Below are positions 10,155 to 61,686 of a stretch of DNA of 64,000 nt, one piece after another (position 1 is the first letter of the stretch; each line of letters begins with the position of its first letter). The position numbers were made by a program, and so were the translations under genes. The stretch comes from Prorocentrum cordatum. Its lineage: Eukaryota > Sar > Dinophyceae > Prorocentrales > Prorocentraceae. The notes beneath the pieces were generated by a model, which worked only from the letters and a program-made list of their open reading frames with translations, did no database searches and had not been told where the DNA came from. The stretch covers positions 675,190 through 739,189 of the forward strand of contig CAUYUJ010017837.1 of NCBI GenBank assembly GCA_963575745.1, given 5' to 3'.

Positions 10155-10319
10155 CTGATGGGCCTGTTTTCCACTACCACTACCATAAGTTAGAGGGAGA
10201 AGGAGGAGGAGGAGGAGGAGGAGGAGGAGGAGGAGGAGGAGAGGAGAGAGAAGGAGGAGGAGGACCCCCATCCCCCCCCTCCTACTTATGGTAGTGGTCG
10301 TGGAAAACAGGCCCATCAG
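10155..10319. mobile_element. TIR element T9 with internal (AGG)n (165 bp)
   Basis: A nearly perfect 36-bp inverted repeat (left 10155-10191, beginning CTGATGGGCCTGTTTTCCAC; right 10284-10319) encloses a purine-rich (AGG)n core. TCT occurs just outside both ends, a possible 3-bp target duplication. Such a long perfect repeat suggests recent insertion or a strong hairpin. Confidence 0.75.
10199..10262. repeat. (AGG)n microsatellite
   Basis: AGG triplets forming the core of the TIR element T9. Confidence 0.9.
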
Positions 10320-10661: not shown

Positions 10662-10833
10662 AACACGTTACCAGCCTGGAACACATCCCTATCCCTGTGC
10701 TGGGCACCTCCTCATCACGACGCCAATCCTAGGGACTCCCTCTTTTTTTTGGAGGGCGAACCCCTGAGGTTGTCATCGCCTTCTGGCGTGTCAATCTTAG
10801 GGATAGGGATACGTTCGAGGCTGGTAAACACGT
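10662..10833. mobile_element. TIR element T10 (172 bp)
   Basis: The left end AACACGTTACCAGCCTGGAA running into ATCCCTATCCCT is mirrored by the right end (agggatagggatacgttcgaggctggtaaacacgt). It lies just inside a probable intron whose donor is near 10848, on the minus strand. Confidence 0.7.
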
Positions 10834-23613: not shown

Positions 23614-24342
23614 CTGGAGCCGGCTGGCCGCGTTGCGAGCGCCACTGGACATTGACTTTTTGTGGGCGACGGGGTTCGGCTGAACCTGCGCTAGGGTCAA
23701 AATCCAAAGTAAGGATGCAGGGTAAGGACGCAAAGCCCTTGGAGAGTCCTACGAACCATTTGCGGTTCCTTGGACGCCAACGTTGGCTCGGGATGGGCAG
23801 ACGAAGCAGGGATGCAAAGGCAGCTTTGACGAAGCAACGCATCCTTACTATGGTTTTTGACTGTAGGCCTTCGCGGAAGGGATGGAAGGCCAAGGCTGGC
23901 ACTGGCCGGGCACGGTGGCTGTGCGCAGGTGCCCTCTGCCGGATCGGCTAACTGGCGGCGGCCGCCTCACGAACACCTCGGGCTCTGGGCTGCGGCGCTC
24001 TTTGTCCGCTTTCGGGCCTTGTGCCAGGACGGCTGCGGGCACCCATCGTCCCTCGTGTTTCTGCCCCCCTGCGCCACGCCGAAGGTGTCTGCGCTGGGCC
24101 GAGCACGGGCTCTTCAAAAAAACATTTTTTTCTCCGCTCGAAACAGGGAATGCGGCACACACCTCCCCGTGCTCCACGCAGCAACTCCTCTCCGATTAGC
24201 CTAGCCAGGCGAAGAGGGTCGGTTGAACGATTTTCGGGATGGATTGGTTGTCGATGTGAAGCTTCGCACGAATGCAGGCGCTACGGGGGGTGGGGGGCTG
24301 GGCGGGGATGCCTTTAGAGAAGGAGAACATGAGAGAGTTACA

Positions 24343-34164: not shown

Positions 34165-34313
34165 CTAGGATCGGGATAAATCGCTGCAGAGCGTTCCGGA
34201 GCGCTCTCAGAGCGTTCCGGAACGCTCTGGAGCGGCCGCGGCGCCCAATACATCCTCCAAACCCGCCGATTCTCAAAGATTTCGAGTTATCCCGATCCGA
34301 TTTTGTCCCGATC
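34165..34313. mobile_element. TIR element, family T4 copy 1 (about 150 bp)
   Basis: Ends ctaGGATCGGGATAAAT and the inverse TTTTGTCCCGATC. The interior contains palindromic GAGCGTTCCGGAACGCTC-type units. Copy 2 at 34611-34760 is in the opposite orientation. Confidence 0.7.
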
Positions 34314-34355
34314 TTCGCATCGTTTGATATTTCTCCTCCCCTGAGATCATCCTCT

Positions 34356-34600
34356 ATCAGGGACAGCGGCGCCGTGGTGTGCTGGCCGGCGCTGCTGCCC
34401 GCCGCGGGCGCGCCCGCGGCCCTGGAGTCTGCCAGCGACCCGAGGTCGCTGCGGCTGCTGCCGCTGCTGCTGGAGGTGCTGCTGCGGCTGCTGCGGCTGC
34501 TGCTGCTCCTGCGGGCATGGGGGGACTTGTTCGCACCCACCGTCTGCGGGGGGAGATCTCTGGGGACCTCGGCAGGCGTTGGATATGGCACAGTTGTGGA
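34356..34600 (-). CDS. Candidate exon, Ser/Arg-rich N-terminal region of the DeSI-like protein
   Basis: The minus frame reads AEVPRDLPPQTVGANKSPHA, then a Ser/Arg-rich stretch (SSSSRSSRSSTSSSSGSSRS), SDLGSLADSRAAGAPAAG and APLSLIEDDLRG, where it runs into the 25-bp direct repeat. Coding-like composition with G/C third positions. I infer that it belongs to the DeSI-like gene because it is next upstream on the same strand. Confidence 0.5.
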
Positions 34601-34610
34601 AGACGAAGCC

Positions 34611-34760
34611 AGGACGAGGATAAATTCGGGTAAGGATCAGCGACGATCTCTGAAATCTGGCCGCTCTGGAAGATGCATCGGGCGCCGTGGCCTTCTCAGA
34701 GCGCTCCAGAACGCTCTGAGAGCGTTCTGGAACGCTCTGGCACTGATCTGTCCTCGTCCT
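34611..34760. mobile_element. TIR element, family T4 copy 2 (150 bp), inverted relative to copy 1
   Basis: Begins AGGACGAGGATAAAT and ends with the near-inverse (gatctgtcctcgtcct). It shares the gatgcatcgggcgccg block and the paired GAGCG(T/C)TC(C/T)(A/G)GAACGCTC units with the reverse complement of copy 1. Confidence 0.7.
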
Positions 34761-43500: not shown

Positions 43501-43539
43501 GGTATGTGTGTTTGACAATGTGTGATGTGAGCCTGCTGG

Positions 43540-43698
43540 GGGGTGCTAAACACGTCCCTGGCCCGAGGTGTCACCAGCTTTTCGCTCCATTTTGCAGCCC
43601 CTGAGACTCTCTGGACCTCGTTAGGGGTGCTCTGGAGGCCGCGGGGGCCTTCCTAGGAAGTCTGCAGACCTCTTGGGCCAGGGACACCTGTTTAACGA
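43540..43698. mobile_element. TIR element, family T5 copy 2 (about 160 bp)
   Basis: Matches 61067-61228 over its whole length: start gggtgctaaacacgtccctggcc, then ccagcttttcgctc, ctctggacctcgt, aggggt(g/a)ctctggaggcc, and the inverse end ttgggccagggacacctgtttaac. This is the introner family; whether this copy is an intron is unknown. Confidence 0.8.
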
Positions 43699-58120: not shown

Positions 58121-58261
58121 AGACCCCCCAGAACAGCGGGCATCATAGCCGGCTCAAGATCAAAGAAGGCATCATAGCCTCGTCAGTCTAGATTGATCCA
58201 ATCACGGATCCACTGCAATTCATTTCCACTGAATTCATTCCATGCGTAGCATGCTCTCCCC

Positions 58262-60605
58262 CAGACCCCCCAGACCCCCCAGACCCCCCACACACGCGCA
58301 CACGCGCACACGCGCACACACCCACACGCGCACACGCGCACACGCGCACACGCGCACACGCGCACACGCGCACACCCACACGCAAACACCCACACGCACA
58401 CACAGACACAGACACAGACACACACAGACACACACAGGCACACATACAGACACACACACAGACAACCACACACACAGACACACACACAGACACACACACA
58501 GACACACACACACAGAGACACACACAGACACACAGACACACAGACACACACAGACACACAAAGACACACACAGACACACACAGACACACACAGACACACA
58601 CACAGACACACACACAGACACACAGAGACACATAGGCACACACAGAGACACACACAGACACACACACACAGAGACACACACAGAGACACACACAGAGACA
58701 CACACAGAGACACACAGAGACACAAAGAGACTCACAGAGACACACAGAGACACACAAAGACACACATAGACACACACAGACACACACAGACACACAGGGA
58801 CACACACAGAGACACACAGAGACACACACAGAGACACACACAGAGACACACACACACAGACACACACACACAGACACAAACACAGAGACACACACAGAGA
58901 CACACACAGAGACACACACAGAGAGACACACACAGAGACACACACAGAGACACACACACAGAAACACACACAGAGACACGCACAGAGACACACACAGAGA
59001 CACACACACAGAGACACACACAGACACACACAAAGACACACAGACACACACACAGGCACACACAGACACACACAGACACACACAGAGACACACAGAGACA
59101 CACAGAGACACACAGCGACACTCAGAGACACACAGAGACACACAGGCACGCAGACACACAGGCACACAGGCACACAGGCACACAGGCACACAGACACACG
59201 ACACAGAGACACAGAGACACAGAGACACAGAGACATTCAGAGACACACAGAGACACACAGAGACACACAGAGACACACAGAGACGCACAGAGACACACAC
59301 ACAGACACACGCAGACACACAGACACACACAGACACGCAGACACACAGACACACATAGACACAAAGACACACAGACACACACAGAGACACAGAGACACAC
59401 AGACAAACAGACACACAGGCACACAAACACACAGACACGCAGGCACACAGACACACAGATACACAGACACACAGACACACAGGCACACAGACACACAGAC
59501 ACACAGACACACAGGCACACAGGCACACAGTCACACAGACACACAGACAGACACACAGACACAGACACACACACAGACACACAAACAGACACACAGACAC
59601 ACACAGACACACACAGACACACAGACAGACACAGAGACACACAGACACACAGACACAGACACACAGACACACAGACACACAGACACACAGACACACACAC
59701 AGACACAGACGCACAGACACACAGACACACAGACACAGACACAGACACACAGACACACAGGCACAGGCACACAGGCACACAGGCACACAGACACACAAAC
59801 ACAGACACACAGACACAGACACACAGTCACACAGACACACAGACACACAGACACACAGACACAGAGGCACACAGACACAGACACACAGACACACAGATAC
59901 ACAGACACAGACACACACACCGACACACACACAGGCACACACAGAAACACACAGACACACACACAGACACACACACACACAGACACACATACAGACACAC
60001 ACACACAGACACACGCACAGACACACACACACAGACACACACAGACACACACAGACACACCCTCAGACACACACACAGACACACACACACACTCACACAC
60101 GCAGACCCGCACACGCACACGCACACGCACACGCACCCACACACACACACGAGCACACACACGCGCACACACACGCGCACGCACTCACACGCGCACGCAC
60201 ACGCACACGCGCACACACGCGCACACATGCACACACACACGCACACACACGCACACACACACACGCACACACACGCACACAAACACACATGCACACGCGC
60301 GCACACGCACATGCACGCGCGCGCACACGCGCACGCTCACGCACACGCACACGCACACGCACACGCACACGCACACGCACGCACACGCACCCCCACGCAC
60401 GCCCACGCACGCACACGCACGCACACGCATGCACACGCACGCACACGCACGCACGCACACGCACGCACACACGCACACACACGCACACACACGCACACAC
60501 ACGCACACACACGCACACACACACACCCACACACACCCACACACCCCTACACACACCCACACACACACACGCATAGACACACTATATATGTCTATAGATA
60601 GAAGT
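58262..60605. repeat. 2.3-kb CA-rich array (CACACAGACA and CACACGCA variants)
   Basis: Almost pure CA/GA/CG dinucleotide steps. The first block is CGCGCACA, the centre is CACACAGA, the last 500 bp is CACACGCA. Cys/Val-rich minus frames and Thr/His-rich plus frames are artefacts. Confidence 0.95.
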
Positions 60606-60664: not shown

Positions 60665-61060
60665 TTATTGATCTCGTCGTCGGACCTTGCACTTGTTCTG
60701 CCAACCGGTGCTGTTCTCCCTAATGTAATCAACCTGCCTCTCCGTGAACTTGTGCAACCTCGCCGTGGCATCACCGTACAAACGCTCGAACACTCGGTTG
60801 GCACCCGACTGGAAGGTGGTCAGCCCGGCCTCCTCCATGGCTTCCCGCATCTCCTTGCCCAGCCCTCTCTTCTCGAGGATCTTCTGGAGCGCGGTGAGCT
60901 TCTTCCGCAGCTCGTCGATGCGGCCCCTCGCCTTCTCCAGGTCCTCTCTCAGCTTCTCCGCCATTTCGTCCGCGTCCCGCCTGGAGCGCTCGGTGATCGC
61001 CGCAGACTCGGAGGCCTGGGCCGCCATCTCCAGCCTCAGCCTCTCCAGCTCGCCCGCAAC
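60665..61060 (-). CDS. Coiled-coil protein, C-terminal exon
   Basis: Starting at the intron acceptor GAAG|GTT (61060), the minus frame reads VAGELERLRLEMAAQASESA, ITERSRRDADEMAEKLREDL, EKARGRIDELRKKLTALQKI, then GLGKEMREAMEEAGLTTF and VFERLYGDATARLHKFTERQ. The first 90 residues have clear heptads with Leu, Met and Ala at a/d and many charged residues, a coiled coil. The frame ends VRRRDQ then TAA at 60665, unless CAAG|GTCCGA near 60683 is a donor. Function unknown; probably a cytoskeletal or scaffolding protein (inference). Confidence 0.7.
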   Translation of the reverse strand, partial: VAGELERLRLEMAAQASESAAITERSRRDADEMAEKLREDLEKARGRIDELRKKLTALQKILEKRGLGKEMREAMEEAGLTTFQSGANRVFERLYGDATARLHKFTERQVDYIRENSTGWQNKCKVRRRDQ

Positions 61061-61233
61061 CTTCAAGGGTTGCTAAACGTGCCCCTGGCCAAAGGTACCC
61101 CCAGCTTTTCGCTCAGTTTTGGAGCCCCTGGGGCCCTCTGGACCTCGTGAGGGGTACTCTGGAGGCCGTGGGGGCATCCTTGGAAATCCTGGGGGCACCT
61201 TGGGCCAGGGGCACTTCTAGCAACACCCGAAAC
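61061..61233 (-). other. GT-AG intron formed by a TIR element (introner)
   Basis: Minus-strand donor CCCAG|GTTTCG (61233) and acceptor TTGAAG|GTTGCG (61061), 173 bp. Both flanking exons are in phase 0, and removing it restores a continuous helix (QMQAQ followed by VAGELE). The TIR element fills all but about 5 bases on either side. Confidence 0.85.
61067..61228. mobile_element. TIR element, family T5 copy 1 (introner, 162 bp)
   Basis: Inverted ends pair over about 38 bp: GGGTTGCTAAACGTGCCCCT... and, inverted, GGGTGTTGCTAGAAGTGCCC.... AACCT occurs on both sides (61058-61062 and 61231-61235), a target-duplication candidate. The second copy is at 43540-43698. Confidence 0.85.
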
Positions 61234-61686
61234 CTGGGCCTGCATCTGCACGCGGACCTCCTCCTCCACCTGCCTGCGGACCCGGGCGGGCGCCTCGTGG
61301 TCGGGCTCCCACCGCGAGGGCTCCCCGCAGCCCAGGGACTCCCACGGGAACTCCCCGGCCTGACCGAGCGCTCCGCCGGAGTCGCCGCCCGGCCCGGCAC
61401 GGCCGCACTCCTCCTCGTCTCCGTCATCCGGGAAGAAGCTGTACGCCGGGTCCTGCCCCTGCGGTGTCTGCGGCGACGTGGCCCCCGGCGACGACCCCCC
61501 CCCGCCCAGACCTCGAGGCCCGCCGAGCCCCCGCGCTGAGGCGGACATGGCACGGACGGCCCAGTCCAGGACGGGCGCCAGGTTCCCGATGCCGACCTCG
61601 CCGCCGTCGTCGCCGCCGCCGCCGTCGTCGCCGCCGCCGTCGTCGTCGCCGCCGCCTCCGTGGCCGCCGCCGCCGCCGTGTTCGCT
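61234..61686 (-). CDS. Coiled-coil protein, middle exon
   Basis: The minus frame has a Gly/Asp-rich part encoded by GGC/GAC triplets, then GEVGIGNLAPVLDWAVRAMS, a Gly/Pro-rich linker, DPAYSFFPDDGDEEECGRAG, GEFPWESLGCGEPSRWEPDH and EEEVRVQMQAQ, which leads into the coiled coil after the introner. The acidic YSFFPDDGDEEE segment is a good interaction-motif candidate. A TGA at 61689-61687 separates it from the upstream helical segment in the same frame; it may mark an intron (GAG|TGAAG or GA|GTGAAG) or a defect. Confidence 0.6.

Follow-up and report, generated by a model that had tools for sequence, protein, structure and literature searches.

Introners and related elements in protist genomes

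Where spliceosomal introns come from has been asked for a long time, and their origin from introners is well documented. The screen described in the text of Gozashti et al. (2022, PMC9860276) required at least four similar introns per family at non-homologous positions, and introners were over-represented in genes in 161 of 175 genomes. The same study describes introners whose two splice sites both come from the target-site duplication (TSD) or the insertion site, and according to the legends of its Fig. 2E and Fig. 2B, respectively, the introners of Florenciella obtain donor and acceptor alike from the insertion site and those of Symbiodinium microadriaticum have 4-bp TSDs and terminal inverted repeats (TIRs). 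Introners are also reported from Polarella glacialis (Roy et al. 2023, as summarised in PMC11453091). In Prorocentrum cordatum itself, introns are described as enriched in introner elements, and the catalogue in that report comprises introns with inverted repeats of 8-20 nt and direct repeats of 3-5 nt near their ends (Dougan et al. 2023, PMC10666404). The introners of Amoebophrya are likewise described by inverted and direct repeats and by hairpins (Farhat et al. 2021, PMC7789003).

A candidate intron with a comparable architecture lies at positions 61061-61233, on the minus strand, of a 64,000-nucleotide stretch of the P. cordatum genome, the whole of which is referred to here as the window. 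As in the published description of Florenciella, the element that occupies the interval carries neither splice site, and as in S. microadriaticum a TIR element together with a short target duplication makes up the whole intron. It differs from the dinoflagellate introners in these accounts in that the TSD is 5 bp long, the acceptor is located outside the element and no concentration of copies in introns is seen. Introners of the Florenciella type form families of several to many introns, whereas one intron and a possible second are found here in a family with 1544 exact ends. The elements catalogued in P. cordatum and Amoebophrya also have inverted repeats near both ends and a direct repeat of 3-5 nt at the borders, and the interval would probably fall within the repeat definition used in PMC10666404; those elements were defined by a pattern inside predicted introns. 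The second relevant class are ordinary non-autonomous TIR elements (MITEs), which are likewise short (too short for a transposase), with long TIRs, a constant TSD length and a high copy number, and like them the inspected copies of the family lie mostly outside coding frames. The window copy differs from ordinary MITEs in that it interrupts a coding frame and has splice-competent borders. By mechanism the intron would work like an introner, and the mechanism is one already published for introners.

The proposed intron and its borders

The interval of 173 bp has GT-AG borders in phase 0, and the minus strand reads CAG/GTTTCGGG...CCTTGAAG/GTTGCG across 61233-61061 (slashes mark the proposed splice borders), so that the interval opens with GTTTCGGG and closes with CTTGAAG. 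AACCT, which is AGGTT on the gene strand, stands as an exact repeat at both 61058-61062 and 61231-61235. The 173 bp consist of a 168-bp TIR element (61063-61230) and one copy of this 5-bp target duplication. The element is devoid of splice sites of its own and both splice sites derive from the duplication, because excision of the interval leaves CAG/GTT: the copy at 61231-61235 is the source of the AG/GT donor and the copy at 61058-61062 that of the AG acceptor. The splice borders coincide with the duplication, their register being set by GT-AG. Once the interval is removed, the minus-strand codons ...GTG CAG ATG CAG GCC CAG, which end at 61234, are followed by GTT GCG GGC GAG CTG from 61060, and the two frames join in phase 0 as ...VQMQAQ/VAGELERL.... 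If it were retained, the interval would shift the frame, its length of 173 bp not being divisible by three, and the frame of the upstream exon reaches a stop codon at the end of the element that is farther from this exon. A hairpin of -103.4 kcal/mol (z -8.58 against 200 shuffles) is predicted for the RNA of the interval.

This reading bears out much of the first-pass annotation, which had described a 173-bp GT-AG interval between in-phase frames with AACCT on either side, occupied by a DNA-transposon-like element and bordered at both splice sites by a target duplication. The coding frame is continuous across the empty site and the element with one duplication copy fills the interval completely.

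The host gene

The upstream exon (61234-61548, minus strand) extends from an ATG (MSASARGL...) to ...VQMQAQ, and its frame is open back to 61686. Its GC contents at codon positions 1, 2 and 3 are.79,.62 and.90 in the frame fixed beforehand by the junction, and.82,.54 and.96 in the 150-bp window closest to the junction. By the difference between third and second positions (GC3-GC2) in this frame, the exon ranks within the top 1.8% of a set of 12,268 equally long GC-rich windows. The downstream exon (60668-61060, minus strand; VAGELERLRLE...) comprises 131 codons to an in-frame stop, although it may splice again earlier, and has GC contents of.61,.43 and.85. Six homologues (P0001-P0006), one of them from Symbiodinium sp. 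CCMP2592, show 37-39% identity to the downstream exon in alignments that cover about half of the joined query, and the homology starts at GELERLR, the third residue past the junction. The same search with the joined host protein gave no homologue for the upstream part, and no Pfam family scored above the cut-off with the host protein. Among the best 150 of 1122 candidates, which were scored in a search of the genome for an intron-less paralogue of the host gene, none was found and the matches were the gene itself. The in-phase relation of the exons stands, and the label 'coiled-coil' given to them in the first-pass annotation rests on inspection by eye. Because frame continuity, coding GC, homology of the downstream exon, the frame shift upon retention and the position of the borders on the duplication combine, splicing of 61061-61233 is very probably the correct reading of the sequence.

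A CA-rich simple repeat of about 2.3 kb (58250-60601), whose plus strand is open for 783 codons, lies directly downstream of the downstream exon. The next intron of the host gene, if the gene goes on, would have to span this repeat.

The element and its family

The element at 61063-61230 (minus strand) is a MITE of 168 bp, the length of the family consensus. Its TIR at the 5' end on the gene strand (61189-61230, minus strand; TCGGGTGTTGCTAGAAGTGCCCCTGGCC...) and that at the other end (61063-61104, plus strand; TCAAGGGTTGCTAAACGTGCCCCTGGCC...) match at 35 of 42 positions, and the inverted arms, taken as 61062-61110 and 61183-61231, are 49 nt long and 82% complementary. For 20,000 stretches of 168 bp drawn at random from the window, the corresponding pairing has a median of 11, a 99th percentile of 19 and a maximum of 35, the last of which may be the element itself, which stayed in the sample. 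A 22-bp end pattern with up to three mismatches matches only the two arms within the window, where 0.02 matches are expected by chance. The second copy that had been proposed in the window is also real: it lies at 43538-43687 (minus strand) beside a GT repeat and aligns to the element with 80.5% identity over 149 columns (43540-43687). It is the older copy, 22% diverged from the family consensus, and its flanks, read by eye, show no clear target duplication. An Rfam scan of the window gave no match, and neither did a search with the TIR pattern in viral contigs, a set from which relatives of the source genome may be absent.

A genome-wide search with the element, which the first-pass annotation had proposed, reveals an abundant family with 1544 exact TIR ends of one inverted-repeat pattern in an assembly of 4.128 Gb and 21,875 contigs. 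The DNA search returned 2268 first-look candidates, and the 40 scored places, which include the window copy, are 89-100% identical. Together with a second copy in one of these loci (L023) they form a similarity-ranked first sample of 41 copies, and 33 of these are flanked by exact 5-bp duplications, in 32 cases at zero offset. The two ends of the 168-bp consensus match at 39 of 42 positions; the copy at 61063-61230 is 5.4% diverged from the consensus and the other copies of the sample 1.8-11.9%. A second sample was made up of the first 40 places in a contig-ordered list of TIR ends with targets starting in A or T, except for one locus that had been retrieved before and one place that was the second end of an element already listed. 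Together with L101 it contains 41 copies (none was found in L089 and two in L085), and an exact 5-bp duplication is present in 20 of them (17 at zero offset). The TIRs are common to the copies and the target duplication has a constant length of 5 bp, both of which are features of MITEs, and the duplicated sequences vary (CACTT, ATATA, CCTCG, TGTAT, GGAGA and others). The family is thus one of abundant, ordinary MITEs with varied 5-bp targets. No description of this 168-bp family was found in the published passages covered, and it may be in print; a literature search on Prorocentrum combined with MITEs or transposable elements returned nothing. One copy (L114, G000:C16443:8440-9130) seems by eye to be interrupted by a stretch with inverted ends of the ACACCAACA type, which is perhaps another element nested within the MITE copy.

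Target preference and coding context of the family

If the interval belonged to a true introner family, that is a MITE lineage which is maintained or spread by making introns, 61061-61233 should be one of many such introns. Duplication-derived splice sites, TIRs and a short duplication do match introner architectures described in PMC9860276. For an element without splice sites of its own, an excess of splice-competent targets would be expected, an expectation of this analysis and not a published criterion. The first base of the five-base target is A or T at 772 of the 1544 ends and G or C at the other 772; some elements are represented by both of their ends, and variant ends fall outside the count. 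Among these ends 26 have splice-competent targets (AGGTN 3, including the window, NAGGT 7, ACCTN 9 and NACCT 7), where about 24 are expected at equal base frequencies and where the control words amount to 19 (ACGTN 7, NACGT 7, AGCTN 3 and NAGCT 2), so that no clear excess is found. Many of the ends counted as splice-competent lack a duplication on the opposite side. Eighteen of the 26 were inspected, namely the three AGGTN, the seven NAGGT (L007, L102-L107), the seven NACCT (L108-L114) and one of the nine ACCTN ends (L084), and an exact AGGT-bearing duplication is present in five (L001, L007, L102, L106 and L108). The other two AGGTN ends (L044 and L045) are without an exact duplication and no element could be aligned in L103. 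In the first sample AGGT occurs in three of the 33 exact duplications (the window, L002 and L007), or two of 32 without the window copy, which exceeds the expectation of a fraction of one and speaks for an introner family; in the second sample it occurs in none of 20. The related pattern AGG[AC]N (AGGAN and AGGCN) is found at 14 ends, and AGG[ACT]N precedes the opposite TIR end once; among these 15 loci the element was aligned in 13, none of them convincingly coding.

The coding context of the copies was assessed with a two-sided statistic, for which GC3-GC2 is taken to the left and to the right of the empty site in a single open, non-repetitive frame; frames with one residue above 25% are skipped. 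Coding tests of this kind are weak evidence, and in a simpler version, GC3-GC2 in an open frame, low-complexity frames give false highs (L063, L082, L073, L077, L005 and L019). The set of 114 distinct copies was obtained after removal of L041, L042, L043, L046 and L115, on account of overlap or context, and of copies that share identical flanks. The statistic is below 0.30 in 110 of them and at least 0.30 in four, namely L011 (0.40), the window copy (0.37), L108 (0.30) and L068 (0.30), compared with at least 0.30 at 15 of 1170 random points in the loci. L068 is without an exact duplication and ambiguous, and apart from this one no convincing coding insertion is seen in the contig-ordered loci with an element, which are 39 of 40. 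In eight control loci with ACGT or AGCT targets, seven copies were aligned and a short, repetitive-looking frame in L119 scored 0.36 in the simpler coding test. Only two of the 114 copies, that in the window and L011, are convincing insertions into a coding frame.

A second intron of the same kind is possible at L108 (the same locus as L115; G000:C1670:196400-199100), where the duplication GACCT (AGGTC on the proposed gene strand) would delimit another GT-AG interval of 173 bp, this one in phase 2. Windows that span the junction or follow it directly have a GC3 of.90-.93, which drops to.53 about 100 bp downstream, and neither a homologue nor a Pfam domain was found for this gene. The two-sided score of 0.30 falls on the strand opposite to the proposed splice sites, which counts against an intron, and an earlier coding score of 0.21-0.22 does not stand out, as 10% of random points reach 0.20. 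A frame with a coding-like GC pattern is also seen further along the same strand in L115. Another open frame with a coding-like GC pattern is located near position 587 of L012, about 900 bp from a MITE copy, and presumably resembles an AlkB-type dioxygenase.

The number of coding cases can be compared with chance. With 85,849 genes (PMC11453091) and a mean coding sequence of 2,798 bp (PMC10666404), as given in these sources, coding sequence occupies about 5.8% of the assembly, and 26 x 0.058 x 0.5, or about 0.75, exonic and correctly oriented cases are expected. No targeting is needed, because one or two cases are seen, one of them preselected. One well-supported and one possible intron among the 114 distinct copies inspected, which are a small part of the family, also fall short of the threshold of four similar introns applied to introners. 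That the family is an introner family, as the first-pass annotation proposed, is not upheld by the target words or by the coding statistic, and this reading is unlikely even with the possible case at L108. Its proposal of intron gain by transposition holds as far as the element, the duplication and the continuous frame are concerned.

Origin of the interval

A different possibility is that insertion of the MITE destroyed the gene, leaving a pseudogene in which 61061-61233 is not spliced. That exonic insertions without suitable borders occur is evident from L011 (G000:C13584:342668-345831), where an element at about 1501-1668 with the duplication ATATA and no AG/GT borders breaks a frame which in the empty site is continuous through an exostosin domain (GT47; Pfam PF03016, E 3.8e-47). 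The L011 host gene is a pseudogene or is spliced at other sites. At the locus in the window, both frames are still open with high third-position GC though the element has already diverged from its consensus, and AGGT inside a 5-bp target is expected in only about 0.8% of insertions at equal base frequencies, which makes a broken gene distinctly improbable here. For L011, splicing through a GC donor and an internal AG was also worked out by hand and would be in frame with two extra residues; alternatives exist and this is not claimed.

It is very improbable that the element merely lies beside an older acceptor (of a pre-existing intron, or a site of spliced-leader trans-splicing at the downstream exon) with the upstream frame outside the gene: dinoflagellate mRNAs are trans-spliced, the homology starts close to the junction and the upstream exon has no homologue, but AG/GT stands on both sides, placed there by the duplication, and the upstream frame joins in phase with its highest GC3 next to the junction.

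The interval is thus likely to be one intron, gained when an ordinary MITE inserted by chance at an AGGT site, and not the product of a specialised introner, because the family has no clear preference for splice-competent sites. It is proposed that a 168-bp MITE of an abundant family inserted into coding sequence at an AGGTT site and that the 5-bp duplication made upon transposition put AG/GT at both borders. The spliceosome could then use the left copy of the duplication as donor and the right copy as acceptor, which would restore the original frame exactly, and the intron RNA is predicted to form, through its inverted repeats, a long hairpin, which may draw the splice sites together. A counter-point to the gain of an intron by insertion is that a start of homology almost exactly at the junction also fits an older exon border at this place.

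Implications for intron gain

Both splice sites of the proposed intron come from the target duplication, yet the family bears no clear sign of specialisation for introns. It may tentatively be suggested that every MITE is a latent introner, provided that it has a high copy number and a 5-bp target duplication. If so, such an element would generate a frame-perfect intron whenever it lands in AGGT on the coding strand, without a splice site of its own or a preference for genes, and AGGC and AGGA targets would also serve in genomes with GC and GA donors. The rate of intron gain would then depend on nothing but copy number, coding fraction and the frequency of AGG, and this family would represent an unspecialised initial state that gives rise to introner families. 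The counts suggest a null model, in which competent ends at the observed frequency and coding DNA near 6% yield less than one exonic, correctly oriented case, a number near the one or two observed. Such a baseline of chance insertion could serve as a yardstick for introner families.

Other inverted repeats in the window

Four further inverted repeats are present in the window. The one at 10155-10319 is also MITE-like, with arms of 43 nt that are 93% complementary and 79 nt apart. A long inverted repeat with 137-nt arms (72%) spans 34187-34739, and shorter ones are located at 10668-10827 (40-nt arms, 80%) and 23691-23866 (28-nt arms, 86%).
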